A stretch of 64,000 nucleotides of DNA, taken from the NCBI GenBank assembly GCA_018398585.1, contig JAGTTD010000019.1, positions 5,369,702-5,433,701 on the forward strand, given 5' to 3'. The first letter of the stretch is position 1, and every line of letters starts with the position of its first letter. This DNA comes from Simmondsia chinensis. Taxonomy: Eukaryota > Streptophyta > Magnoliopsida > Caryophyllales > Simmondsiaceae. The position numbers were made by a program, and so were the translations under genes. Below the pieces are notes generated by a model, which saw nothing but the letters and a program-made list of their open reading frames with translations, did no database searches and was not told the DNA's origin. This document shows, piece by piece, positions 8,490 to 60,325 of the stretch.

Positions 8490-9092
8490 GTAACATTACT
8501 GTGCTGGCTGTTGTTGCCCCAGGAGGCAAGTAGGTCCATGGTTATGAGATGGTGTGGCTTGACCTTTGCTTCCTTAGCTCTCGTGGCTGAGGCCAGTGCG
8601 ATTAGAGCTGCTTGTTTCCTAGCCCCTTTTTGGGTATGGGCTCGGGCTATCTTTGAATTAGACTATAAGGAGGTGATCTATATCATCAACAATTTTGATT
8701 CATCACCTTGACAAATTCAAGCCATACTTTTTGATATTAAATTATTTTGTTCAGATCTTGAGTATGTTCTTTTTGGTTGGATTCATAGATCAGCTAATTG
8801 GGTTACCTATGAAATTGCTAGGCATCATAGTTTTGGTGTGTTGCACCCCTCAGATTGGGGGTTCTCTGAAACAGCCTCCCTACCCTGAAGGGGGAAGGCT
8901 GCATATATCCACCCCCTAGACTCTGCTTAGGCGGGAGCCTTTGGGGTAGTGGGAATGTTGTTGCTTTTTATAGTTTCGGTTTTTGCGTACATGACTGGCT
9001 TGACTAGCCTGTTCTAAACGTAGTACAAGCTCTTTTAAATGATAGTAATAAATAGTTAGATTTCATGCCTTTTCAGTTAAAAAAAAAAAGCC
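8490..9092 (+). pseudogene. LINE 3' fragment with RNase H domain, split by a SINE
   Basis: Around 8560-8836 the frame encodes an RVT_3-type RNase H C-terminal region (AEASAIRAACF, then an ESD-like strand, DI, and ANWVTYEIARHHS), with a TGA at about 8708. It resumes after the inserted SINE at 8970 as a LINE 3' UTR ending in an A run at about 9079-9090. The missing upstream reverse transcriptase shows 5' truncation. Confidence 0.65.
8838..8969 (+). mobile_element. 5'-truncated copy of the 5S rRNA-headed (TTG)n SINE
   Basis: It is bounded by ATAGTTTTGGT (8827-8837) and ATAGTTTCGGT (8970-8980), an 11-bp duplication with one change. Its first bases, GTGTTGCACCCCT, equal the 3' end of plant 5S rRNA. 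The shared SINE body follows (GAAACAGCCTCCCTACCC, GGCTGCATA, CTGCTTAGGCGGGAGCC) and a GTTGTTG tail. It lies inside the LINE fragment above. Confidence 0.8.
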
Positions 9093-9790: not shown

Positions 9791-10156
9791 TTCATGATTC
9801 TATGTTTACACTAACATGATATGGAATAGGAGTAATGATAATCACATGAACAAGTTGTCGTTGTTGTGAGTTTTCCTGCAGTTGTATCTCAATTTCAGCT
9901 CTTGTAAATTGAAAGATAGTTCGCGTTTAGTATAGTAATTTTATAGTATTGGTAAAAATCAAACTTTCGAGCACAAATGAAAGCGAAAAATATCAAAATT
10001 AACCCACAAGATATAGTGGAAACTGTATTTCAACTAGAAGAAAAAATCATAGAATCCGAACAAGTGCCTCATCCAATATGAAATTTAAGAATTATAATAT
10101 CTAATCATGACTACCTATCCCGTATTACAATTATGTAGAACGGTTTATTTCATTGG

Positions 10157-10404
10157 TAAGGATTCATTTATCAGGCATTAATGCACCGGATCCCATTAGA
10201 ACTCTGAAGTTAAACGTGCTTGGGCGAGAATAGTATTAGAATGGGTGACCTCTTGGGAAGTCCTCGTGTTGTCAATAAGGTTGGGAATCCTCGAAAACAA
10301 TCTCTTGGCAGGGTTATACCCTGAAGGGGTAAGGCTGCGTATATCCACCCCCCTCCCAACCCTGCTTAGGTGGGAGCCCTTGAGGCATTGGGTCTGTTGT
10401 TGTT
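10157..10404 (+). mobile_element. SINE with a 5S rRNA head and (TTG)n tail
   Basis: Bases about 10157-10270 align with plant 5S rRNA from its first nucleotides: ATGCACCGGATCCCAT, GAAGTTAAACGTGCTTGGGCGAGA and ATGGGTGACCTCTTGGGAAG are all present. Most differences from the usual 5S sequence are C-to-T or G-to-A. The internal 5S control region (A box, intermediate element, C box) is therefore retained. From about 10285 the body shared with the other SINE copies follows, ending in TTGTTGTTG. The whole unit is flanked by GGTTTATTTCATTGG (10142-10156) and GGTTTATTTCACTGG (10405-10419), a 15-bp duplication with one mismatch, so head and body moved together as one unit. Confidence 0.9.
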
Positions 10405-10504
10405 GGTTTATTTCACTGGGAACTAGGAGCCCGAGAAATGCCTCAGTTGTTGTAGTAGAGATCATAGTAGCAAGAAATGGGATTCTGTAGGCGATAAGTA
10501 TGGG

Positions 10505-11628: not shown

Positions 11629-14600
11629 TTAGATTGAGATGCTATTTGGTATTCCCTTGCCTGTGAGACCCCCAGCTTTGGATTCATCTGATGTGTTTGG
11701 ATACAACAATGTGTAAGGCACATCAACTGGCCCCCTTCTGTTTTTCCGTTTCTTGTCATTGTTCCTTTCCATGATTCTCTTTTCAATTTCCAGGAGCCTC
11801 ATTCTAAATCTTTCAAATGAAGCTAACGGGTCTGCATCTGAGGTCCAATCTGCTGTATCTCGCTGTCCAAGATAGATCTCATCCGTTGAATGCCTGGACA
11901 GAATCTCTATTAAGGACACACCTAGCAGTGTTTGGAACTGAGCTGTTATTGTTCTCAGAAACGCGCGTTCTGGGTTTGTCTCGAGCTCAGCGTACTCTGG
12001 TGTGCCAGGCTGAGGCATGAAGTGGCGGCTTACAGTGGGCCGGTTCGGGAGGAAGCCAGCATATGGGTATTGGCCAAAATTGACAGCTGCGTGTAGTGCA
12101 GAAGCAACCCATATAATGATGGTGCAAACGTTGATTAGATCTTCTCTCTGGTTCATTTCAGGCCACCATTGCTCGTCTTTCTTATCGCCATGGCCAACAT
12201 TGCGAATCTCTGTCCACCATGATTGTAGCTCATAGTCATCTTGAACTGTAACATTAGCTGGATAGTAAAAGGAGCAATATTCATTGACCCATGTCTCTAT
12301 TGCTGACCAGATCTCAAGCCCATCAACAGCAAAGGGGTAATCGTCTATCAAAAGCCTAAGACCGCTGGGGGAGGAGGAGTCCTCAACTGCCATTCCTCTG
12401 AGAAGAAACAAAGTCGAATGGAATAAACTTTAAATGGCTGTCACGTATACAAGTTTATAATACAGTTTTTGTATTTGCCTTGAAAAGAATGTAAAAATTT
12501 TTAAAGATCAGCATCCTTAATTAATTTCTTAGGGGAAAAAGTAATCTTTTTGGGAGCTCTTTGAACAAAAAGCTTTGAGGACTTTGCTGACGTAGCCTTA
12601 GTTGATTTGCAAAGGGACTCAGAGAGCTTTATGCTACTAGTTTATGGTTTTCTGTTGTTGCATTTTATAATTTTGAAAATATTTTATCCTTAACTCTATG
12701 TACATTCTCTCCCTTATATAATTTCTCTTTCTGATAAAAGAACCATACCTTTTGAGAAGATCTCTTGGGAGTGCCTGATCAGTGAAGACCCAGCTCCTGT
12801 AGATAAAGGATGACATTTCCATAGCAAATTTGGCTGGGTAGACAGTTCTCTCAAACACTCCATTAGCATTGATCAGGAGCTGCCGAGCCAAAGCATTGAT
12901 ATTCATGGTGTCACGGAAGTGGGGTTGCAAGAGCTTGTGGATTGGGTGAATCACACTCAGCTGTCTATTTGTGGCAATGATGAATGGCTCTATCACTGCA
13001 TGGGTCTGTAACCTGCATTCACAATTAGAAAGTACCATAGATGTGATTCTATTCTGGAAACTTTTTGCTCTAACAACTAGATAAAGGAGGATAAAGAGAG
13101 GTAAAGAGGTTTAAACAGGGTGAGGATAAGGGGCTATCCTACCCTTGTTCGGATATGTTGTAAAAAGGGGTAAATGAGTTACCCTTATTTAGCAATTGGG
13201 CATGGGAGTAAGAGTAAAAGAGGAAAAATGAGTTACCCTTATTTAAAAATTGAGAAAAGGGTAAGGATAAAAAAAGTTAAAGTCAAAATAACAGCAAAAT
13301 TGTCCAACGTATTTTAAAAAATTTTACCCTGATCCCGCACTTTATCTTTCAAAAATACTTGCCAGGCAGTAAGGGTTTAGCCCCAGTACCCTTACCCTTC
13401 TTTACCTCTCTTTACTCTATTACCAAACAAGGGGTTCAGGTGACAAGCCAGTTGGTTCTTTACTTGATCACGAAATCATACCAATGACTTATGAGCTGGT
13501 GATAGCCAGAATCGTTCACTGCAGCATAGGCCTTGGCCAATTGCCATACAGAACCCTCAACGCCCTCATGTGCAGGAGTGTAGACTTGACTGACTGAGCC
13601 ATGATGGTCCCCTTGTGGGTGTGGTAAGCTCAATTCAATTGCCAGTGGCTTCAACGTGCTATCATCCTTCAGGAACAAGATGGTCCTTGTTGCATATGTC
13701 TGTGTGGCAGTCGAGTTTATCCGACTTAGGTATGGCATCAATGCATCATGATGATCTAGTATGAACAGCCTGTTGTCCTCAATTGCCTATGAAAGATCAT
13801 ACAATGGTTAGCTAACAGAATAATGGGAAACTTGCTTAGGAGATGCAGGTCTATTTGGCCAAGTTGTAAAAAAAACTGCCTTTTTTAAAAGTACTTTTTT
13901 GTCTGAAAAATTTTAGTTATTGCTTATAAAGAGAAACACTATTTTTCTATTTTGGCTTAAAAGCAGAAAACAACTTCTGTTTCTATTTAGAAACGCTTTT
14001 CTTTCCAAGCCAAACAAACTCAAAACACAGAAAGTGTTTTTTAAGCACTCTTTGCAGAAAAAAAGGTCCTGTAGTGAAATGAGGTAAGTACTTCATCAAC
14101 AGTGTAACCATCCATGTTCTTTTCTACGTGTGATCTGGTTATTGAACTATCTTGATTGCCATAAGCATTTGGGTCAAGCTTGCTGGCTGGGGGAAATTCC
14201 TGACAATGAGATTTTGTGTCATCAGTAATAGGTTAAGATGTAAAATTCTATAGATAACATGGGCTTGAAGTAGGTTTGACAAGCTCTTATCTTACTTCAA
14301 GACGTCGGATCACTACTGGGTTCACTCCAGCTAGCATTTCCCTAGCAAACTCTTCATCAGTCCTCCAAGCATTCTTGTCCTCTGCAAATATATGCAGACC
14401 AAAGCTTCAATTTTTATTAGATAATTTGCCAATACTCTACTTCACATATATTTCATACCAAGTTAGCAAAAAATCTGGAAGATACCTTTGATCACATCAG
14501 GCATTGGAAACTTGAGAAATCTCTCACCATCCGTACGAACGAGCTCCTTTAGCAACTCCCAGGGAATGCAGTCCTTGACTTTACTTAGAGTCTCATTTGG

Positions 14601-17600
14601 AATCTTGAATCCACCTTCATAGAGACTCATTACATCTCCAAATGTGTCAAACTCATTTGGGGTCTTGTCATAAATGGATTTTAGCTCTGGGACTAGTATC
14701 TGAACAAGCGATTTCAGAGCATAGGAAAGAAAATCAGACATTTTGATTTGACCGAACCGCTCATCTCTTGGGACATAGATATCCAGGCTCAGAAGATACA
14801 GTCTTCTCTCTGTGTTTGGATCTGGTAAAATCAAAAGTAGCATAATTTTCCAGTTAAAATGATCATTAGTATTTGTTGCTGAGAAATAGTTGTGAGCGAA
14901 TTGTGATGAATGTTAATTGCTACTTCCAACTTGTTTCTGGCAAACTTATGGGTTAGTGTAAGACCTGTAACACTCCGGACTGGGCACAGGTGTGCGCCTT
15001 AAGCCTGTGCCGTATCAGATGGGCTGTCAAAGATGGCATCATGTGGACAAGGTGCGCACTCAGGTAAGGGTGCATTAGGCCTCCACGGACCTAGGCCTAA
15101 GTGTGGAACTAAGTGGGAACCGAGACGGACGCAGCCCCAGATAGTGCCATGACAAGGGCCTGGCACGGCCCCAGACAGTGTCACGACAGGGACCAGGGCA
15201 CAGCACTGGGCCGGCCCAAGGCTGCGAACGGGTAAGCGATAGGCACGGGCCCAGTGCAGGGCACTGGCCTCGCCCAGGAACGCATAGGCCCAATAAGGCC
15301 CAACTAAGCCCGACCTTGAAAGAGGACAAAAGGAGCATGTGATACATGTGGAGGACGGTCACCAAAGGAAAAGAAGTGGGAATAACATTTGACCAGTTCA
15401 AACAAAGAAAAGAGCAGGAACAAGGAAGAGTGGGCTTGAACATGGAGGTAACCGCCGGTTCAAAAGTGGCGCCTAAATCAAAAGAGCATGTGCATTGACT
15501 AAGCTTGACCATAACCGCTCCTAGGCATTCAAGGAGAACATGAGGCACGGTTTGACCAATGAAGAGAGGAAATTGGCGGGAACGGTTACCCATGACCTTG
15601 GGGTTGTCAAGGTCTATAAATATGTGTATTTGTGTTCATTTGGCATGCTATGTAATCCTGGAAATGAATTAATAAAATAGTCCCTTATTCTCGTATATTT
15701 TCCCTTGCGTTTCCTTTGTATTCTTTTCGTGTATTTTAAGTGTGGGTTTCGGCTGGGTGAGTGAACCTCACCGCCATCACAGCTAGTCTAAAAATTAACT
15801 GTGACAATTGTGGTATCAAAGCCAGGTTCGCTTGAACCGTGCGTCCAGACCCTGCGTGTGCGCTGCCTAGAACTTGCGTGCTTGCTGTCCAGACCTTACG
15901 TGCTTGTTGTTGTCTTCGTGGCTGAGTCTAAAATCAGGTTTGCCCCTTGTTTTCGAATTTTAATTTCGAAATTCTAGTCAATATCTCATTTTTTGATTTA
16001 GGCCTTGGCTGATACTTGTGGGCTTGTCCTAGTGTTGGTTGTGGCATTGCTTGGTTGCGAACTTGTGGACCTTATCCCTATCACTTGTTCTGAGCCTTGT
16101 TGGATGGGTTGCGTGTGATTTTTCCTGGACCGTGTGAATTCTATCTTGTGCGTGCTTGTTATTGTGCGGGGTGGGATTAATTATAACCCCATTGGGCTGG
16201 AAATTAGTGTTGGCTGTGTGATTGGTGTCCTTGTGTGACTATTTTTGGTTGGTTGCTTGACTTGTGGTATTTGTTGTCATCATGGTCCAAAATCATCAAG
16301 AACTAGGAAAACGTCCTAAGACTAATGAACGTTTGAACCGAATTGAGGAAATCTTAGGTTCGAAGTATGATGTTGATGACCTTCCTCCGGGAACAGTTTT
16401 GGGTGCAATGAAATCTTTGTCTAATGATATCGGGTCCCTTAAAGAAATGATTAAGTCTTTAAATACTGCTCAAAGGACCCCGTCTCCAGTCCCTACTCCC
16501 CCTAATGTGTTCCGTAGGTTGGGCCCTCATAGGGTTGGTAGTAGTTCCCCTAATATACCTCATGTTGGTGAGACTTCCATCCCTACGGTGGAAAGTTTAC
16601 AAAAAGAAATCTTGGTGCTGCATAAGACAATTGATGCAGGTATGTTTGGACTTGACAAGAGTAACATTAAGGTTCCTACTCCGAAAGCCTTTTGGGGTGA
16701 ACGTTATGCCAAAACCTTGGAGAAATTCCTTTGGGACATGGAACAATACTTTACGGTTGCCCACGTCCGTGAGGAAGACAAGATTGTCATGGCATCCATG
16801 CACTTGATGGGTGACGCAAAGTTGTGGTGGAGAACCCATGTGTCAGAGGATCATGCTGCTGGTCGTGCTGGAACTGGTTCATGGGATGCCTTAAAGAAAG
16901 ACCTACATGAACAATTCTTCCCAACTAATGCTTCTTGGTTGGCCCGTGAGGCCTTGAATGACCTCAAACAAAATGGTTCGGTTCGTGAGTATGTTAATGC
17001 TTTTAGTTCTGTAATTTTAGAAATTAAAGATATGTCGGATGAGGACAAACTCTTTAACTTTATTTTGGGTCTTCAACCATGGGCTAAACTAGAGTTGAGG
17101 CGCCAAAAGGTCCATGACCTTGCCGCTGCCTTGGTTATGGCTGAGGCATTAATGGACTTTAATGTTGGACATGACTTTAATAGAAAGGATCATTTTAAGA
17201 AGGGAAAGAAACATGGCTTTAAGTCCCTTAAAAAGGAGAAGGGTCCTGCCATCGAACCCAACAACATTAAAGTCTCATTTAGAAATGATGGGAATGACAA
17301 AGAAAAGGGTCCTAAGTCTATTGCTTGTTTCATATGTGATGGTCCTCATTTTGCAAGAAATTGCCCTAACAAACAACCCTTAAGTGTTGTAGTTCAGCAG
17401 GATGATGATGAGGATGAGGATCATGAGCCATTCCATCTCATGTAAGGATGAGTTCACTAAAGTTAATGGACAAAACAGGTTCCGGATGATGCGCAAGTGG
17501 CTGGTCGTCCAGGCAGAATAGTGGGGCTGCTGTTTATGCCTAGGATTTATGCATGTTTTTATGGTTATGTTTTGTTTTGGGCTCCATTGTTTTGGAGGTT

Positions 17601-23710: not shown

Positions 23711-26700
23711 TCAAGTTGGAGCATGTAAATTTACAATGCCCAACTTGAAAAGGAGAGAAGAAAATGACGGTGAAGAAAGCCCTTTAGTAAATATATCAGC
23801 CACTTGTCCTGATGTACGCACGAAAGAGGTCGAGATTTCTTTGGCCAACAGCTTCTCTCGAATAAAATGACAGTCGATCTCTATATGCTTGGTTCTTTCG
23901 TGAAAAACCGGGTCCGAGGCTATGTGAAGTGCCGCTTGGTTGTCACAGAATAAAATAGCGGGCTTTTGAACATCAACTGCAAGATCCACTAATAAACGTC
24001 TCAACCAAACTAACTCGCTTGTCACAGTGGCCATTGCACGGTATTCTGCTTCAACAGAGGAACGAGAAACAACTGACTGCTTCTTAGAACGCCACGATAT
24101 GGGAGCTCCTCCCAAGAAAACAACGAATCCTGTAGTAGATCGTCTGCTAGTAGGACAACCTGTCCAATCAGCATCACAATATGCACGAATGTTAAAATCA
24201 GAATCATGTGGAAGGAAAATCCCTTGACCCGGTGTTCCCTTGATATATCGAAGTACTCGATAGGCGGCTTCAAGATGTGGAACTTTAGGATTGTGGACAA
24301 ACTGACTAAGTATGCTAACTGCATAACAAATGTCAGGACGAGTAATGGTGAGATATAGAAGTCTTCCTACAAGTCTCCTATATTGGCCTGGATCCTTAAC
24401 TAATTCCCCTTCTTCATCACTCAAATGGTGATTTTGAACAATCGGTGTGGCAACCGGTTTCCCACCTATAAGCCCGATTTCACTCAAGATATCAAGTGCA
24501 TACTTTCGTTAACTCAAAATTAACCCTTTTTGAGAGCGAGCCACCTCTACCCCGAGGAAATACTTGACAGCTCCTAAATTTTTAATGCCAAATTGAACAA
24601 TAAGCTTTGACTTTACTTCTTCAATATGACTCAGATTGTTCCCGGTAATAACAATATCGTCAACATACACTAGGATAGCAGTATACACAGCCCCCTTGTT
24701 ATAAGTGAAGAGTGAATAATCAAACTTAGGCTGGACAAAACCCATTTCAACAAGCGAATTTGTGAATTTCTGATTCCAATTACGTGAAGCCTGTTTTAAA
24801 CCATAAAGCGATTTTCGCAAACAACAAACTTTACCGGCATGTTGTTTTTCAAGACCCTGTGGTAATTTCATGTAGACCTCCTCATCGAGGTCACCATGAA
24901 GAAAGGCATTATTCACATCCAATTGATGCATTATCCAATTTCTGGCTGCCGCAACTGCAAGTACACAACGAACGGTAACCAATTTAGCAACGGGAGCAAA
25001 TGTATCATGATAATCAATGCCTTCTACCTGGGTATAACCTTTGGCAACAAGCCTTGCCTTATACCTCTCAATGCTCCCATCAGCCTTGTATTTGATTTTA
25101 TAGACCCATTTTGAGTCTATCGCTCGCTTTCCCAGGGGAAACTCTTCTAGTGTCCAAGTCTTGTTTTGTTCTAATGCCGAAATCTCTTTCTCCATTGCTT
25201 CCCTCCAATAAGGCGACTCGACTGCCTGTGCAAAATTCTTAGGCTCATCACAAGATGTGATGGCTTGTAGCAAATTAGAATGCGAGCTAGTAAATCGTGC
25301 ATTAGAAACATAATTTGATATAGGATAAATCATACATGAGTTAGCCGATGAAGGGGTATCACGAGGATGGGCTATCGAAGGAGGAACATCAACCACATAA
25401 TCTCGATATTTTGAAGGCATGGAACGGACACGAATCGGTCTCCCCGCTTGACCCGCAGCTTCCTCCCCCTCACTGTGCTGACCGAACATTGTTCGGTCAG
25501 TCACTGCAGCACCGTCATTTGACGGTGCTACGAGATCCCTTATGGCCCTTGTTTCTTGTGTTTGTATCAAACTCCCTTTGTTGACATAATGAATTAAATC
25601 AAAAACACCATTATTTGAGCTATTGTTCTTCCCTTCTTCAACATACGGAAATCTATCTTCGTGAAAAACTACATCACGTGAGATTACAATCCTTTTATTG
25701 TCTAAGTCATAGACCTTATACCCCTTTTTGCCATGAGGGTAATCAAGAAAAACACCACGAATTGCTCTACTTCCGAACTTATCTTTACTATGATCCCTAT
25801 TATGAACGTAGCATAACGAGCCAAAAACGCGTAAATGTGTATATGAAGGAATTTTACCAAGTAGTACTTCATATGGACTCTTGTTTTGTAGACGAGTTGT
25901 AGGCATGAGATTGATAAGATAGGCTGCCGTCAACACGCATTCTCCCCAAAATTGAATAGGAAGACCCGCTTCAAACCTAAGGGCTCGGGCCACTTCAAGG
26001 AGATGACGATGCTTTCTCTCCACTACCCCATTTTGTTGGGGTATATCATTGCAGGAATTCTACACTTGTATGCCCTTTCATGCATAAAAGTTAAGTAACG
26101 GCCCAAAAAGGAATTCCGCTCCATTATCACTACGAATTTGTTTAATCTGCGAATTGTATTGAGTTTGTACCATTTCACAAAAATCCACGAGGATTTTATG
26201 TGACTGAGACTTGTCACGCATCAAATACACCCAAGTACACCTACTAAGATCATCAACGATAGTGAGGAAAAAACGAGCTCCTGTCATTGACAACGTACGG
26301 TATGGACCCCAAATATCAACATGAAGCAAATCAAAACAAACAACAGATTTACTAACGGAAATAGGAAAAGGCAACCGAGTTTGTTTAGCTCGATGACACG
26401 AGTCACAAACATTATCCAAAACAACACCAATATCCAAACCCGAAAAATTAGACAATTTGTTAAACGGAACATGACCCAATCGACGATGCCACAAAATTCC
26501 CTTATTAGTACTACCAACGACTTGAGCGGACTTTGGAATGACAGCGCACTCCATCATGTATAGCCCATCTCGTTCTTGACCCGCTCCAATCAGCTTCCTC
26601 GATGGCAGATCCTGTATTACACAAAAATTTTTGAAAAATGTCAATGCACAATTTATATCTCTAGTTAATTTGCTTACTGACAACAAATTGCAATGAAAGC

Positions 26701-28021
26701 CCGGAATTTGTAACACATTTTCAAGTATGATGTCGTCTGTGATCTTGGCACGTCCAACGTGTGATACTGGCAAACAAGTGCCGTTAGGTAGTCGAACGGG
26801 ACGAATCTCGGTATTAACCCCTCTATCAAGTAAAGTAAAATCGGATGGCACCATATGGTCCGTTGCACCTGTATCAATAATCCAACAACTACTACCAAAC
26901 GAACCCTAATCTGTCAAGTTAACGCAAGGGGCACAATTTCCCGAGTTGAGAAGACCCAAAAGTTGTTGATATTGTGAAGCCGAAAGACCTACGATCGGGC
27001 TCACGTCCGGGGCTCCGGGCTGCTGGTCCGTGGGGACTGGCAGCAGCAGCTGCTGTCGACCAGCAGCCTCCCACGCCTGCTGCGCAGTAGCTGCAGCAGG
27101 CCTCCTATTACTGTTGCGTGGTTGCTTCCATCCCAGTGGGTATCCAATTAGCTCGAAGCACCTGTCTCTTATATGTCCCTGTTTCTTACAATATGAACAA
27201 ACTGGGCGATTATTGCGCTTGGGTTGTGGTCCATTCATTGACGACGAACCACCTCCCAAAAACATATTAGTCCCTTTAGCAACAAGGGCTGCAGCCTCTG
27301 GTACAACAATGCTACCGGATGCAACACTTTGTTGTTTTTCCTCTTGACAAAGTGTTGAATAGGCACTAGCTCCCGAGGGTAAGGGCTTGGAATTCATCAA
27401 TTATGATCTCACAGTAGAAAAACATGGGTCTAAGCCCATTAAAAAATCAAGTAGTCTCTCCATGTCCCGTATGGCCGCAAAAGCTTGACCCGATCCACAC
27501 ATACATGGAGGTATGGCTACTAGAGTATAAAGCTCATCCCATAGAGCCCTTAATTTCGTGAAATAGTCAAAAATTGACTTATTTTCTTGTTTTAAGAGTG
27601 AAATTTTGCGTTTGATTTCATAGATACGAGGAGTGTTCCCTTGAGAGAAACGCTCATTTAGATCTAACCAAATGTCGCGCGCAGTTTCAAAATATGCTAT
27701 ACTAGCATTGATTTCTTTGGAGACGGAATTAGTGAGCCATGAAGAAACCATGGAATTACAAGCGCTCCAATTTTCAAAATCCGGTGAAGACTCATCGGGT
27801 TTGACAATGGTTCCATCAAGAAACCCCAGCTTTCTTTTAGCTTTAAAAACTTTGAAGATAGAACGCCTCCAAGCTGGAAAATTAGGTCCCGTTAAAACGT
27901 CTTGCACAAAAACGAGACCTGGATTATCTGAGGGGTGTAAGTAAAAGGGTGAGTTCACATTAGGAACGCCCTTTGATTCAACACCAGGTGCAACAATTTG
28001 ATTAGTATTTTCTTCCGTCAT
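23711..28021 (-). pseudogene. Copia Gag-Pol frame with five nonsense codons
   Basis: One continuous frame from ATG 28021 to 23711 holds the whole polyprotein. Gag has the N-terminal FYLHPSDNPG motif of the copia Gag family and a zinc knuckle CSYCKKQGHIRDRC. Protease shows WIIDTGATDH. The integrase has the HxxC part (HRRLGHV, CDSCHRAK) and the core DIWGPY and SDNGAEF. The reverse transcriptase has intact YVDDIV, and RNase H has YCDADWTG and EAEYRAM. In-frame stops on the minus strand are at 27403-27401 (TAA), 26908-26906 (TAG), 26080-26078 (TGA), 26062-26060 (TAG) and 24511-24509 (TAA). No frameshift was seen. Each stop is one transition away from a sense codon. Confidence 0.9.
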
Positions 28022-33506: not shown

Positions 33507-36500
33507 ATGACGTCGGCAATCAAATCTGAGGTAGAGAAGTTCGGAGGTCAAGGAAGCTTCAGTTTGTGGCAAGTCCGTGTTAAAGGACTCCTGACCCAGA
33601 ATGGCTTGAACAAAGCACTGGAGTGAAAAGAGAAGAAACCGGAAAACATGATAGAGGCACAGTGGGAAGAATTGGATGATAAGGCTCTCACGGCGATACA
33701 GATGTGTTTAGCAGATGATGTACTGACAGAAGTCTTGGAGATGAAAACTGCCAAAGAGTTGTGGGAGAAGTTGCAAGAGATGTTTTGCCACAAATCGGTC
33801 TCCATTAAACTTGCAATAAAGCTCCGATTATTCATGTTTCATATGACGGAAAGTATATCACTTAAAAATCATCTTAGTGAATTTAATTCTATAATTCAAG
33901 AATTGAAAGAATTAGATGACACCCCTAAGGACGAAGATCAGACCATGATATTATTGTGTTCACTCTCTAATACTTATGAAGGCTTTGTAGAAAGCATGGT
34001 ATATGGTGGTTGGCCTACTATCACAGTTGATGAGGTTAAAAGAAACCTAGTAAGTAAAGAGAGAGTTGATAGGAAACTGTCCGACTTTGTGAATAACTCT
34101 GGTAATGGCTTGTTTGTGAGAGGTTGGATTGAATCTAGAGGGTCTAAAGGTGGAAAGAAGTCTACGTCTAAATCTAGATATAAGAACCTGTCATGTAACT
34201 TCTGTCACAAGAAGGGGCACATAAAGAAAAACTTTTATAGAGAGATGATAACAAGAACGACCATAAGTCCGCTGAGGCTAGTGTAGTTGAAGATGAGGGA
34301 GATGTTGATGTCCTATTAGTAACCGAGTCACAGGCCAGGTCCAGGGATAAGTGGATCATGGATTCGGGTTGTTCTTACCACGTTTGTCCTAATAGAGACT
34401 GGTTCACCACTTATAAGTCAATTCAGGGTGGAGTAATCATAATGGGCAATGATGCCACATGTAAGGTGATGGGTATTGGAACAGTTCGTGTGAAGATGTT
34501 TAACGGTACAGTTAGGACACTTAGCGACGTGCAACACGTCCCAGATTTGAAAAAGAACCTTATTTCTTTAGGTACCATTGAGTCCAATGGGTACAAGTAC
34601 ACAGCTGAAGGTGGAGTCATAAGGGTCAGTAAAGGTGCATTGATTGTGATGAAGGGTAGAAGGGTAGGAACCTTGTATGAGCTTGTAGGTTCTACCATGA
34701 CAGGGTCGGTGGCTGTTTCTACATCGTCTATGATAGATACAGAGATCACTAAGATGTGGCACATGAGATTGGGTCATGTGAGTGACAAGGGGCTGTCAGA
34801 GTTGAGTAAGAGGGGTCTATTATATGGTCAGTCAACTGGACTGATGGATTTCTGTGAGCACTGTGTATATGGGAAGCAGAAGAGAGTCAGCTTGAAGCAG
34901 GCAGTGCATCAGACTAAAGGAACGTTGGACTACATTCATTTTGATTTATGGGGACCGTCCAAAGTTGCTTCCAAAAGAGGTTCCAGGTATTTGCTAACGT
35001 TCATTGATGATTTTTCACGTAAAGTTTGGGTCTATTTTCTTAAGCAGAAGAATGAAGTTTATGAAGTCTTTAAGAAGTGGAAGACACTGCTTGAAAAACA
35101 GACAGGAAAGCAGTTAAAGAGGTTGAGGACAGATAATGGTCTTGAGTTTGTTGAGGGTGATTTCCTCAAATTCTGTGAGGACCAAGGCATTGTCAGACAC
35201 AGGACTTGTGCAGGTCGACCTCAACAGAATGGAGTGGCAGTAAGAATGAATAGGATGTTACTGGAGAAGGCTTGGTGTATGCATTCAAACGCAGGATTAG
35301 GGAGAGAATAGTGGGCAGAGGCAGTTAACTTGGCTTGTTATCTAGTGAATCGATCTCCTCATTCATCACTTCAGTTGAAGATTCCAGAAGAGGTATGGTC
35401 TGGTTCTCCTGCTGATTATTCTTATTTGAAGATATTTGGTTGTCCTGCTTATGCTTATGTTAACAATGGAAAGCTAGAGCCAAGGGCCAAGAAGTGTATC
35501 TTTCTTGGTTATACGTCAGGTGTGAAGAGATATCGTTTATGGGATCCAAAAGCCCATAAATTTCTGACCAGTAGAGATGTGACATTCGATGAGTCCGTTC
35601 TGGTACATCTGCCACACACGCCCTCCACAATTCAAGATTCAGTTCAGGCAGAGAAGCCTGATGCTAGTCAGATACAGTCTAAAAGTTTAGATCAGCAGCA
35701 GGTAGTTCAGTTTGAGAGTATGCAGGCACCTCCAGTACAGGTTTTTGATGAGATTGGTGAAACAGAAACAAGTCAGCAGGTCGAGCAGCATACAGTTGCA
35801 GGTGGTAGGCAGAAAAGGTAGATTAGGCCACCACATAGATACAGGTATGAGGAGATGATAGCCTATGCCCTTACTACAGCTGAAACAGTGGAAGACAATG
35901 AACCGTCTTCATATTCAGAGAGTGTATCGAGATCTGACTCAGATAAATGGCTTATGGCCATGCATGAAGAGATGGAGTCTTTGAAGAAGAACCAGACTTG
36001 GCAGCTAGTCAAGCCTCAAACAGGAAAAAGAGTAATCGGGTGCAAATGGGTCTTCAAACAAAAAGAAGGCATTCCTGGAGTGGAAGATGCAAGGTACAAG
36101 GCTCGCTTAGTAGCTAAAGGCTACAGTCAGGTACACGGTGTTGATTTTCATGATATTTTTTCACTTGTTGTTAGATATTGTTCCATACGAGCGATACTTG
36201 CTTTAGTAGCTATGCATGATTTAGAGCTTGAGCAGTTAGATGTGAAAACTGCATTTTGGCATGGTGAGCTAGAGGAGAGTATTTATATGCATCAGCCTGA
36301 GAGTTTCGTTGTAGAAGGAAAAGAAGACCATGTTTGTTTGTTGAAGAGATCTTTATATGGTTTGAAGCAGTCACCTAGGTAGTGGTATAAGAGATTTGAT
36401 CAGTTTATGACTAGCCATGGATTCTTCAGGAGCAAGTATGATAGCTGTGTGTATTTTAGAAAGATAGATTCAGGCTCATTTGTTTATCTTCTGTTATATT

Positions 36501-43773: not shown

Positions 43774-46700
43774 TTTCCTTTGCCTTATGACATGCATCCT
43801 GGAGACTAAAGCTGCTGATGACAACCATAATGCTGCAAAAGACATCTGGCCTCACACTGAATTTTCTTCACAAAACATACAAGCATCGCCTAATGGATCA
43901 GGAGGAATGTTGGCTGTCTGGGATAAAGATTGGATAGCAATCAGGTCAATTCAAGCAACAAAGAACTGGTTATGCATCAAAGGAACCATTGCCCAAGAAG
44001 ACTTCTTATGTGCCATTGTTTTCATCTATGCTCCTTCAACCAAAGATGAAAGAATGCTCATATGAAGGGAGGTAAATCAGGTTGTTCAAGGCCTGAACTG
44101 TCCAACACTCATTTCTGGGGATATGAATGAAATACTCAACCTGAGTGACAGAAAAGGGATGAGGAGTGTCACGGCTGGTATGAAAGACTTCAGGAAGTTT
44201 ATAGCAGCAGGAGGCCTCTTGGAGCTCCCACTCATAGGGAGAAAATTCACATGGGGAAGAGGGAGATCCTTAAGCAGAATAGATAGAACATTAGTAACAT
44301 CTAAATGGTTGGGCAAATTTCCTGATATCAAGCAATGGGGAGTGCAAAAGAAGCTCTCAGATCATGCAGCACTGATAATTGAAACTGAGAAAATCAATTG
44401 GGGCCCGATCCCATTCAGAAACCTGAATTGTTGGCTCTCTAGGAATGATTTCTGGGCATTAATCAGAGAAGAAAAGGAGAGGAAGGGGTTGATGTTGACT
44501 TGTTGCTAAAATTTCTCAAGAACAGAATACATGCTTGGAACAAAGAGTGTTTTGGGGACATAAACATAAGAATCAAGCAACTTGAAGAAGCCTTAGATGA
44601 TGCTGATAAACATCTTGAAGAAGATGACATTGATGAGGTGTTGGTGGCTCGAAGAAAGGCAGCGTGGATTCAACTCAACAAATGGTATATGAAAAGAGAG
44701 CAATTATGGAAACAAAAGTCCAGGTGCAGATACATCAAAGAGGGAGACAGAAACACCAAATACTTCTTCACTTTGGCAAAAGCAAGGCTAAAGAAGAATC
44801 ATATTGGCTATCTCAAAGTCAAAAACCAGAGGATCAAGTAGCCAGCTGACATAAAACAAGCAATCATCAATCATTTCCATGCCTTGTATAATGAAGAAGG
44901 GAGTATAAGTGAGAGGCCTTCACTGCAGGGCTTGCCAATTCCAAGAATAACTGACCAACAAGCTGCTCTATTGGAAAGAAAAGTCATATATGAGGAAATT
45001 ACAGAGGCCGTTTGGGCTTGCAGTCTTTCCAAAGCACCAGGCTACGATGGCTTTAACTTCAAATTCATCAGGAAGGGTTCGGAGATAATTGGGCAGGATG
45101 TTTGTACATTTGTTAGAAGGTTCTTTGATGACAATGTACTTCCAAATAGAGCAAATGTCACTTGGGTCACACTTATACCAAAGAAAACAGGAGCTGCAGA
45201 ACTGCAGGACTATAGACCGATCAGCATGGTGGGTTGCTTGTACAAGATCATTGCAAAGATCCTAGCTAAGAGACTGATACCAGTGCTGCCACAACTAATT
45301 GGTGAGTCCCAAACAGCTTTTGTTAAGAGCTGACAAATCTTGGATAGAGCCTTGATAGCAAACGAAGTTGTTCTATGGACTAAAAGAACTAAGACCCAAG
45401 GTGTCATCTTGAAGCTCGACTTTAGGAAGGCATATGACACAATGCGATGGGATTTCATTGAGGAAGTAATGACAAGAATGGGATTTGGAATGATTTGGAG
45501 GTCATGGATAAAAACTTGCTTATCATCAGCCTCTATATCATTACTTGTTAATGGGTCTCCTACTGCACCTATCCCAATGAGTAGAGGCTTAAGGCAAGGT
45601 GACCCCATCTCTCCATTCCTATTTGTTTTGGAGGCTGAAATTGTGAACTGCCTGATGAGGAAAGCAATGCATCAAGGCTGCATAAGAGGCATGGAAATTG
45701 GCCACTACAAGGAGAGAATCACACACCTACAATTTGCAGATGATACAATCATCTTTTGCGCTGCCCGTGGTGAGGAAATCAGGAATTTCAGAGACATCAT
45801 GGGCTGCTTCCACCTCATGTCTGGTCTATCCCTTAACATGGAGAAATCGGTGTTGATTGCACTCAACAAAAGTGATCAACGGATTTCAAAGGCTGCGCAA
45901 ACATTCCAATGCTCAAAAGGTAACCTTCCAATCTTGTACCTTGGCTTACCACTAGATGCAAACAGCAAGAGAATCAAGACCTGGGACCCCATAGTTGAAA
46001 AAATACAGAAAAGGCTTGCTGGTTGGAAAGCTATGACACTCTCAAAAGCTGGTAGGCTGATGCTCATCAAGTCGGTGCTGCAAACCTTACCAACATATTA
46101 CCTTTCCTTATTTAAAATGCCAAGAATGGTGGCAAAGAAAATCAACAAATTGCAAAGAAACTTCTTCTGGCAAGGCAAAACAGATCAAAAATCAATGCCT
46201 CTCATTAAATGGGAAGTTATTCAAAGGCCAAAGAATTTAGGGGGCCTTGGTGTGGGGGAGATCACAATGAAGAATGCAGGATTGTTGTTCAAATTGTGTG
46301 GAGATTTTCTAATGATTCTCAAGCTTTTTGGAAAAGAATTGTGTCAAGCATCCATCGAACACCTACTAACTTTGTTGCAATTGGGAGCTATAAAGCTTCT
46401 ACTCCTTCACTTTGGTTTGATATCCTCAACTTTCATCATGGGTCCCAACAACTTGAAGAGTGAATCAGGGAAGGCTGGATATTCATAATAGGTAACGGCC
46501 TAAAAACAGGCTTTTGGGAGGATGTTTGGATTGACAAACTGCCGCTAAAGGATAGATTTCCAAGACTCTATAATGCATCAGATCAGAAAAGGAATTGCAT
46601 TGGTGAAATGGGATGCTGGGATGGGCTTTGTTGGCATTGGAACTTCACATGGAGGAGGCGTCTGTTTCTGTTTGAAATTACAATGAGAGATGAGCTTCTC

Positions 46701-48007
46701 CAACTGCTGGGACCTGTGTTCCTTTGCCTTGATAAATCTGATTCATGCTGCTGGAGATTTGATGCAAGAGGGAGGTTCACGGTTAAGTCTTTCTGCAGGT
46801 ATATGTGGCAAAGGCAAGTTATAGATCAAATTCATATAATCAAAGGCTTTTGGAAAGGGGTTGTCCCTCCAAAAATCGAGCTCTTTACATGGCTAGCTTT
46901 ATTAAACAAGATAAACACAAGATCTAGGCTAGTTAAGCTTGGGATCATCAATGAGCAGCAGAACATCTGTCCAATGTGCAACCAAGATGTAGAAACACCC
47001 GACCACCTCTTCATACATTGCCAAAATGCCTGGAATGTGTGGACTGCACTAGCTGACTGGTGGAAGCAAGAAATGGTGACTTCAGCTACAATCAAATTGT
47101 GGTATGAACAATGGCAAGGAGTGTACACAAGCTGTTTTAGAGGGAAATGCTGGTATATTACTTTCTTTGTTGCAATATGCTCAATTTGGCTTGCGAGAAA
47201 TGACATTATATTCAACGATAAGAGAACATCCACTGAGAACATCATTGATAGTGCTAAGTACAGAGTAGCTACATGGATCAAGGCAGTGAATGAAGATCTC
47301 CCCTACTCCATCCAACAAATCATATCAGATATTGATACAACATCAAAGTGGAATAAACTGAAAAGCTCAAGAGCAGAAATTCATTGGTCCCCTTCCGGAC
47401 TCGGAGCTCTGAAATGGAATGTAGATGGATCGTCTACAGGGAAGCCAGGTGATGCAGGAGTTGGTGGTGTCCTTAGAGACTGGCAAAGTAACATTCGGTG
47501 TGTGTTCTCAGTTTCTATTGGGACTAAAGATTCAAATTTTGCTGAGATTGAAGCCATAAGATTAGCACTGGAATACTCAAGGCAAGATGATAACATCAAG
47601 AGCAGCAGACTAATAATCGAGTCAGATTCAAGAAACGCAGTCTCATGGGCGAACAACTTAGACTCATATCCCTGGAAGATAAACTTCGTTATCAATAGAA
47701 TCCAATTACTTCGGAAAGAATTTTCTTGGGTCTCAATCATACACAAAAAGAGGGAAGCAAACCAATTAGCGGACTCCCTTGCTAAGAATGCGGTTCGAAG
47801 GAACTCCCCATTGATTGCTTGGTTACAATAGATTATCTATAATTAATTGAGGATTCTTTTATTTTGTTGATGGTCCTCCTTTTTGTTGTACATGTTTATC
47901 CACATTTTGTATAGGTTGGATAGTTTTGATGTTTTGTTTCCATCCATCAATTTGATTGGGCGGGTGTAAATTCGTTTTGATTAATGAATGTTCAATTATC
48001 AAAAAAA
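43774..48007 (+). mobile_element. L1-type plant LINE, 5' truncated
   Basis: 4234 bp, flanked by the 13-bp perfect duplication AAGTTCGAGTTGG at 43761-43773 and 48008-48020, with an A run at the 3' end. It begins inside the endonuclease domain and lacks ORF1. The order endonuclease, reverse transcriptase, zinc-binding domain, RNase H is that of plant L1 elements. Confidence 0.95.
43787..47831 (+). pseudogene. LINE ORF2 (endonuclease, RT, zf-RVT, RNase H), disrupted
   Basis: The endonuclease remainder starts at LETKA and shows GDMNE and SDHAALI. The reverse transcriptase (about 45050-46000) has YRPISMVGC, LDFRKAYD, GLRQGDPISPFLF and the catalytic FADDT. A WKAMTLSKAGRLMLIKSVL stretch follows. 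A zinc-binding region near 46850-47050 (IELFTWLAL, CPMCN, DHLFIHC) precedes an RNase H domain (about 47400-47800; NVDGSS, ESDS, ANQLADSLAK). Stops are at about 44063 (TGA), 44839 (TAG), 45331 (TGA) and 46461 (TGA). Frameshifts lie near 44480 and 46280. It is inactive but otherwise well kept. Confidence 0.92.
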
Positions 48008-50377: not shown

Positions 50378-50500
50378 ACACCAACAATATACCCAATGTC
50401 TCAAAGGCTCCTGCATAAACGGAGTCTGGGAGGGGTGGGATGTACGTGGCCTTACCCCTTCAAGGTGTTACCCTAACAAGAGGCCGTTCCGAGGAGAAAG
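50378..50500 (-). mobile_element. (TTG)n-type SINE, minus strand
   Basis: On the minus strand: GGAACGGCCTCTTGTTAGGG, GGGGTAAGGCCACGTACATCCC, CCCAGACTCCGTTTATGCAGGAGCC, ending ATTGTTGG. It is flanked by AATCCTAATGT (50367-50377) and AGTCCTAATGT (50501-50511), an 11-bp duplication with one mismatch. Confidence 0.75.
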
Positions 50501-53376: not shown

Positions 53377-53547
53377 CACCTACATGGTACATTTACCAGA
53401 ATTCTGTGCTTCCCTAATGACACACTCTTTAGGTCGGGAGTCCTCAGAAACAGCCTCCTTTAGGGTAGCACCCCGAAGGGAAAAGGCTGCGTACATCCAC
53501 TCCCCCCAGACCTCGCATATGCGGGAGCTCTTGTGGCACTGTTGTTG
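53377..53547 (+). mobile_element. (TTG)n-tailed SINE with 19-bp duplication
   Basis: It is flanked by TTGCTTTTCTTCTTTTTAA at 53358-53376 and 53548-53566, perfect. The body is GTCCTCAGAAACAGCCTCC, AAGGCTGCGTACATCCAC, CCAGACCTCGCATATGCGGGAGCTC, GTTG. The roughly 60-base head (53377-53440) is divergent. Its last part (CACACTCTTTAGGTCGGGAG) lines up with the 5S-end/body junction of the copy at 8838, so a worn 5S 3' part is possible. GGTCGGGAGTCC could alternatively be read as a B box. Confidence 0.8.
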
Positions 53548-53579
53548 TTGCTTTTCTTCTTTTTAAAAGAAGAGAGGTC

Positions 53580-60038: not shown

Positions 60039-60137
60039 TCCCCGGAAACAGTAAGGGGTAAGGCTGCGTACATCACCCCCCCAGACCCTGCGTTCTGCGA
60101 GAGCCGCAAGGCACTGGGACTGTTGTTATTGTTGTTG
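60039..60137 (+). mobile_element. 5'-truncated (TTG)n SINE with perfect 18-bp duplication
   Basis: It is flanked by TAGATTTCTTCTTATGTA at 60021-60038 and 60138-60155. The content is CCCCGGAAACAGTAAGGGGTAAGGC, TGCGTACATC, CCAGACCCTGCGTTCTGCG, AGAGCCGCAAGGCACTGGG, and GTTGTTATTGTTGTTG. The perfect duplication argues for recent movement. Confidence 0.85.
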
Positions 60138-60216: not shown

Positions 60217-60325
60217 GTTAGGGTATTACCCTGTAAAGGTAAATGTTGCCTACATCCCACTCCTCCCACACCCTGCTTATGCAGGAGCTTTTGAAGCATT
60301 GGGATATGTTGTTGTATGTTGTTGA
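60217..60325 (+). mobile_element. Second (TTG)n SINE, adjacent copy
   Basis: TTAGGGTATTACCCTGTAAAGGTAA, TGTTGCCTACATCCCACTCC, CACACCCTGCTTATGCAGGAGC and ATGTTGTTGTATGTTGTTG. It is more diverged than its neighbour 80 bp to the left. No duplication was found. Confidence 0.65.

Follow-up and report, generated by a model that had tools for sequence, protein, structure and literature searches.

Within the window, by which we mean the whole 64-kb stretch of DNA analysed here, a full-length copy of a 5S-headed SINE (family A) lies at 10157-10404 on the plus strand, as delimited by alignment to the family consensus, to which it is identical in 223 of 253 alignment columns. The copy stands between 15-bp target-site duplications, GGTTTATTTCATTGG on the left (10142-10156) and GGTTTATTTCACTGG on the right (10405-10419, both on the plus strand), and comparison of the two repeats finds them identical at 14 of 15 positions, in agreement with the duplication recorded in the first-pass annotation of this DNA. 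Near full-length 5S rRNA sequence makes up the first ~115 nt of the element. The RF00001 match at 10152-10277 (+) scores 68.8 bits over model positions 1-120 (cmscan, gathering score 38) and is the only Rfam match at gathering score in the window. Taken together with an alignment against a 5S gene of the genome, it places the 5S-derived head at 10160-10274 (+). The 5S text had earlier been put at 10157-10270; its near full length stands, but pairwise alignment moves the start of the homology to near 10160.

The head of the window copy contains box A at 10208-10222, the intermediate element (IE) at 10225-10230 and box C at 10238-10255, all on the plus strand, with 14/15, 5/6 and 16/18 positions respectively as in the 5S gene, within limits that we take to be those of the three elements. 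From 10278 to 10404 (+) the copy consists of the 3′ tail of an RTE LINE, and the (TTG)n end noted earlier is indeed there, TTG repeats occupying about 10396-10404. Relative to most family A copies, 5 nt are missing at the join between 5S and tail. When folded as RNA, the window element was matched or bettered by 193 of 200 shuffles (z +1.64).

The surroundings of the element include a lipoxygenase C-terminal exon (PF00305) at 11629-12411 (-), beyond whose 3′ end the 5S-SINE lies at a distance of ~1.2 kb. Remnants of matK identify the DNA as plant nuclear; the best match stands at 75% for matK, at 63% for the RTE protein (60% in Malus) and at 80% for the lipoxygenase exon (76% in Hevea). Other transposon remains are found at 16264-17445 (+), 24509-26854 (-), 34358-35311 (+) and 45340-47831 (+), and their content comprises a Ty3-type gag, two copia-type pol regions and a LINE with RVT_1, zf-RVT and RNase H.

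Copy number and target-site duplications of family A

A search of its own genome (831 Mb in 35 contigs) with the element gave at least 41 matches, 40 being scored of 9,337 first-look candidates; besides the window copy and one fragment, the 39 listed matches are 84-88% identical and extend from close to the beginning of 5S as far as the end of the tail. A 44-bp sequence spanning the join between 5S and tail, used as a probe with up to 3 mismatches allowed, has 1,306 + 1,269 = 2,575 matches, 75 of them perfect, and the same probe reversed as a control has none in the 831-Mb genome. By rough extrapolation, a Poisson fit to the values of 75 and 2,575 corresponds to about 8,400 copies with 4.7 mismatches per 44 bp.

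Duplication scores of at least 9 were reached by 22 of 30 fetched copies, compared with 12 of 600 random placements, and a clear duplication was absent in the other 8. Among 25 perfect-join copies (20 fetched by place and 5 cut by search; L045 and L020 are one locus) there are 18 of full length, and 15 reach this score, a clear duplication being absent in 10. The duplications themselves vary between copies of the family. The first-pass annotation had taken the element for a member of a 5S-headed SINE-like lineage as opposed to a one-off chimera, and had looked to other loci for the same join and for distinct duplications; both are found, the join in thousands of copies, and the proposal needs refinement in two respects: the 3′ part is the tail of an RTE LINE, as set out below, and there are at least two 5S-headed families. 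The consensus and the insertion signature described below were derived from copies that either have a perfect join or most resemble the window copy, and these lean young.

Two loci deserve separate mention. At L028 (G000:C10:19787987-19788289) a full family A copy is immediately preceded, in the same orientation, by a fragment of a 5S head, possibly a dimer or a nested insertion. At L093 (G000:C29:25561000-25565600) an RTE LINE whose open frame measures 611 aa has a family A copy ~750 bp downstream of it.

The 5S-derived head

In the family A consensus, box A (15/15), the IE (6/6) and box C (16/18) are conserved relative to the 5S gene of the genome, and the three promoter elements attributed to the 5S part in the first-pass annotation can thus be recognised in both consensus and window copy. 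Judged by sequence, the parts of a type 1 Pol III promoter are present in the family A head.

Most of the genome's best-scoring 5S genes belong to two arrays on contig C8, at G000:C8:4685657-4702430 and C8:6396691-6414603, whose units are spaced by about 435 and 421 bp or more; in the copies read, the variants of the two arrays differ at 3 of 119 positions, and the 10 copies fetched from the first array show no difference over 119 nt. Setting the 5S part against the genome's own 5S genes, a comparison that had been proposed at the outset, gave 3-6 differences for family A and 2-5 for family B over a 90-nt core in 7 comparable gene copies, an eighth (L101) being left out as incomparable. Against a canonical angiosperm 5S sequence, the two heads have 3 and 4 differences over 90 nt and are overall no closer to it than to the gene copies. 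The first ~25 nt of the head are more diverged from the 5S gene than the core is. Both SINE families have ACC where the 7 comparable gene copies have ACT, and CTCCT where these have CTCTT; given these two differences, direct descent from the present-day 5S array sequences is unsupported.

No run of four T occurs in the family A consensus or in the window copy, whereas the array 5S genes have T-runs straight after CACCCC, and the 5S terminator is therefore absent from the join. Family A also has a two-sided change in 5S helix I, from GGGTG/CACCC to GGGTT/AACCC, which carries no weight because a local hairpin of the same bases is also possible.

The tail as the 3′ end of RTE LINEs

What had been described as a separate SINE body following the 5S part is in fact the last ~127 nt of RTE-clade LINEs, sequence that lies downstream of their reverse transcriptase, and the unit is accordingly a two-part one of 5S and LINE tail. 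A plant RTE reverse transcriptase stretch used as query in the same genome gave at least 150 scored matches from 6,639 candidates. In 11 of 12 RTE loci that were cut out, the 3′ part of the SINE follows the RT motif at a distance of 0.9-1.4 kb and in the same orientation, with 73-85% identity to the SINE tail, which rules out an independent SINE body. In the 251-nt consensus the shared part begins at about position 109-127 (at 145 for L077, where there is an additional tail match on the opposite strand), the match is cut by the end of the locus in L068 and L069, and L073 has no SINE tail in the stretch examined. In the RTE loci aligned, LINE sequence upstream of the tail start gave no alignment with 5S. 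Three further, longer RTE loci have open frames of 611, 594 and 546 aa, all with PF00078, and all three end in the SINE tail and TTG repeats.

The SINE and LINEs of the same genome thus have their 3′ end in common, as a LINE-dependent SINE does with its partner, and an RTE LINE is indicated as the mobilising partner by the presence of its tail as the 3′ part. With tails only 73-85% identical, the exact source RTE subfamily was not found among the loci examined. The alignment of the tails has a modest shared RNA fold of 16 pairs, 4 of them with two-sided changes.

Insertion signature

Insertions of plant RTE LINEs and their SINEs are described as having a duplication whose first base is T, typically with A next to it, and a T stretch ~10 nt before the duplication (PMC13295347). 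We looked at 33 copies, kept from 49 full-length matches in 48 loci for a duplication score of at least 10 near the element start. T stands at -10 in 24 of the 33 (P = 8e-7, background T being 0.306), the duplication begins with T in 23 (P = 4e-6), a count that T from the adjoining tail may inflate, and C is depleted at -13 to -8, with 5 occurrences in 198 (P = 5e-13). In 5,000 random sets of 33 sites, drawn from the L002-L030 flanks, the highest T count at any one of 25 positions was 22, and no set reached 24. The second base of the duplication is A in 12 of 33 copies, weaker than the published TA rule. Family A copies therefore carry the plant RTE insertion signature, with a weak second-base A.

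A second 5S-headed family

A 5′-truncated copy at 8838-8963 (+) in the window, which starts with GTGTTGCACCCC and is flanked by the duplication ATAGTTTYGGT as read by eye, led to family B. Here the mature 3′ end of 5S, GTGTTGCACCCC, is kept and the RTE tail follows directly, the join running straight from GTGTTGCACCCC to TCAGGTTGGGGGTTCTCGGAAACAGCC. A first probe for this join had 382 matches and a better one 1,572, of which 39 are perfect; the reversed form of the latter had none. Duplications score at least 10 in 6 of 7 measurable family B loci (a raw count; a further 3 of the 10 loci are without a measurable start or end).

Between the consensus of family A and that of family B, which was built from 10 copies, 2 of 89 columns differ in the 5S core, 11 of 25 in the first 25 nt and 22 of 131 in the tail; the low divergence of the core would fit selection for the promoter in source copies. 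The family A join is an altered version of the family B join, and both families have the core ACC for ACT, from which we think that a single fusion took place and later split into A and B; the alternative is two separate births. Outside the main 5S arrays, at L098 (G000:C29:34924600-34925000), a solitary near-intact 5S sequence lies upstream of a family B copy, at a distance of no more than ~10 nt.

Discussion

We hold with considerable confidence that the elements form a plant family of the SINE3 type, composed of a 5S head and the last ~127 nt of an RTE LINE, which is likely to be transcribed by Pol III and likely to be copied by RTE in trans. This reading is sequence-based, drawing on the two-part structure, the shared join, the duplications, the match to the RTE tail and the insertion signature. 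Dispersed copies of one structure, each with its own duplications and a 5S head containing box A, IE and box C, are also the marks by which the family would be placed in SINE3.

Under this model, Pol III transcription would start near 5S +1 from the internal 5S promoter and, because the T-run after the 5S gene has been replaced by the LINE tail, the transcript would continue through the tail as far as the flank. The tail would serve as the recognition signal for an RTE enzyme, which would copy the transcript by target-primed reverse transcription. As to origin, an RTE reverse transcriptase may, after copying a LINE tail, have jumped to the 3′ end of a 5S RNA, a template jump being how we interpret the join. 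In its full form the proposal is that this plant evolved 5S-headed SINEs independently, by a one-step RTE jump to the mature 5S 3′ end with loss of the terminator, which created a self-promoting passenger of RTE that now comprises at least two families and thousands of copies, the first non-tRNA SINE lineage reported in plants and a plant twin of Ped-1 of the springhare; we lean towards this fuller account, with a good deal more reserve than for the family assignment itself.

Modular exchange occurs among plant SINEs, and it lends some substance to a different origin, in which a SINE of the TS type, already provided with a tRNA head and an RTE tail, exchanged that head for 5S, in place of a direct fusion of 5S RNA and tail. 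RTE-tailed SINEs do exist in plants, TS being described as having a tRNA head and ~100 nt in common with RTE-1_STu (PMC3747384). Against such a swap, a tRNA B box with the tail start within 30 nt has no match in the genome (as an exact pattern, which misses decayed copies), the RTE homology starts right at the 5S end with no leftover body, and in family B the RTE tail is attached to the mature 3′ end of 5S. The head, moreover, is 5S and not the tRNA head with boxes A and B of a TS-type SINE. We consider a head swap improbable.

Two further readings would dispense with a 5S-headed family altogether. Cassandra, a TRIM that is common in plants and bears 5S sequence in its LTRs (PMC10853983), could in principle have supplied the 5S part as an LTR promoter caught beside a LINE fragment; however, the unit between the duplications is 5S and LINE tail with neither a second 5S nor an LTR, duplications of 10-20 nt and an RTE signature are a misfit for LTR integration, and no Cassandra LTR flanks were seen in the aligned copies. 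Paired LTRs being absent, we reject a Cassandra origin on structure and give it almost no credence. Scarcely any weight attaches to the other reading either, a one-off chimera of a 5S pseudogene beside a truncated LINE. Mammalian LINE enzymes are reported to join non-coding RNAs into chimeras (PMC13174262) and the family B copy at L098 does have a solitary 5S beside it, but a single event is ruled out by a join common to 2,575 matches, and the duplications differ from copy to copy.

The preferred reading, a fusion of 5S RNA and RTE tail, has its closest architectural counterpart in Ped-1, which has a 5S-derived head and the tail of an RTE-clade LINE (PMC3747384). Ped-1 belongs to a mammal and its tail is that of BovB, in contrast to the plant RTE tail found here; the likeness is one of described architecture, and the two probably arose independently. 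The tobacco TS SINE resembles our families in being a plant element whose 3′ end, with TTG repeats, is common to RTE-1_STu (PMC3747384), and differs in its tRNA head. SINE3 elements have been described from fish, birds, mammals, moths and Aspergillus (PMC8010984, PMC5063351, PMC10886601, PMC3747384). Those of zebrafish, Lepidoptera and Aspergillus, together with the DeuSINEs, likewise have a 5S head with A, IE and C boxes (PMC8010984, PMC5063351, PMC10886601), but they are animal or fungal and their heads are often less like 5S, at about 63% for PxSE4/5; mammalian DeuSINEs are described as pairing with CR1-type or related LINEs (PMC3747384), as opposed to RTE here. Cassandra is also a non-autonomous plant element with a 5S-derived promoter (PMC10853983), but it is an LTR element with 5S inside its LTRs, whereas the plant 5S SINE is of the non-LTR kind and ends in the tail of a LINE.

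Plant SINEs are described as deriving from tRNAs (PMC9033089), or nearly all of them as doing so (PMC10741241), and the Angio-SINE superfamily is defined by a 37-bp 3′ Angio-domain (PMC9033089). A paper on Asteraceae rDNA mentions 5S-homologous sequences in SINE3 “including plants”, citing the paper on the Cassandra LTR element (PMC3095306). We found no plant 5S SINE among the open papers searched, and the families reported here are likely to be the first 5S SINEs in plants. If this is true, plants too can recruit the type 1 Pol III promoter for SINEs, and do so with the same LINE clade as Ped-1. The family B join at the mature 5S end shows plainly, in its sequence, how a SINE may arise.

On a practical level, a 5S-headed family would escape any search in which tRNA boxes A and B are required, and its copies can be annotated as 5S rRNA, the window copy itself passing the Rfam cut-off.

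Other RTE-tailed insertions in the window

Tail-only copies are also present in the window. One, 5′-truncated, lies at 50382-50482 (-) with the duplication ACATTAGGAYTC, another at 60053-60130 (+) with an 18-bp duplication, TAGATTTCTTCTTATGTA (both duplications by eye), and a second tail-only copy at 60220-60315 (+) is about 90 bp from the latter. The tail-only copies of the window fit incomplete reverse transcription and could also be truncated LINEs. At 53431-53549 (+), together with ~55 nt upstream, there is an RTE-tailed insertion with a non-5S head of ~55 nt and the duplications TTGCTTTTCTTCTTTTTAA (by eye), possibly a member of another short RTE-dependent family or a 5′-truncated LINE.
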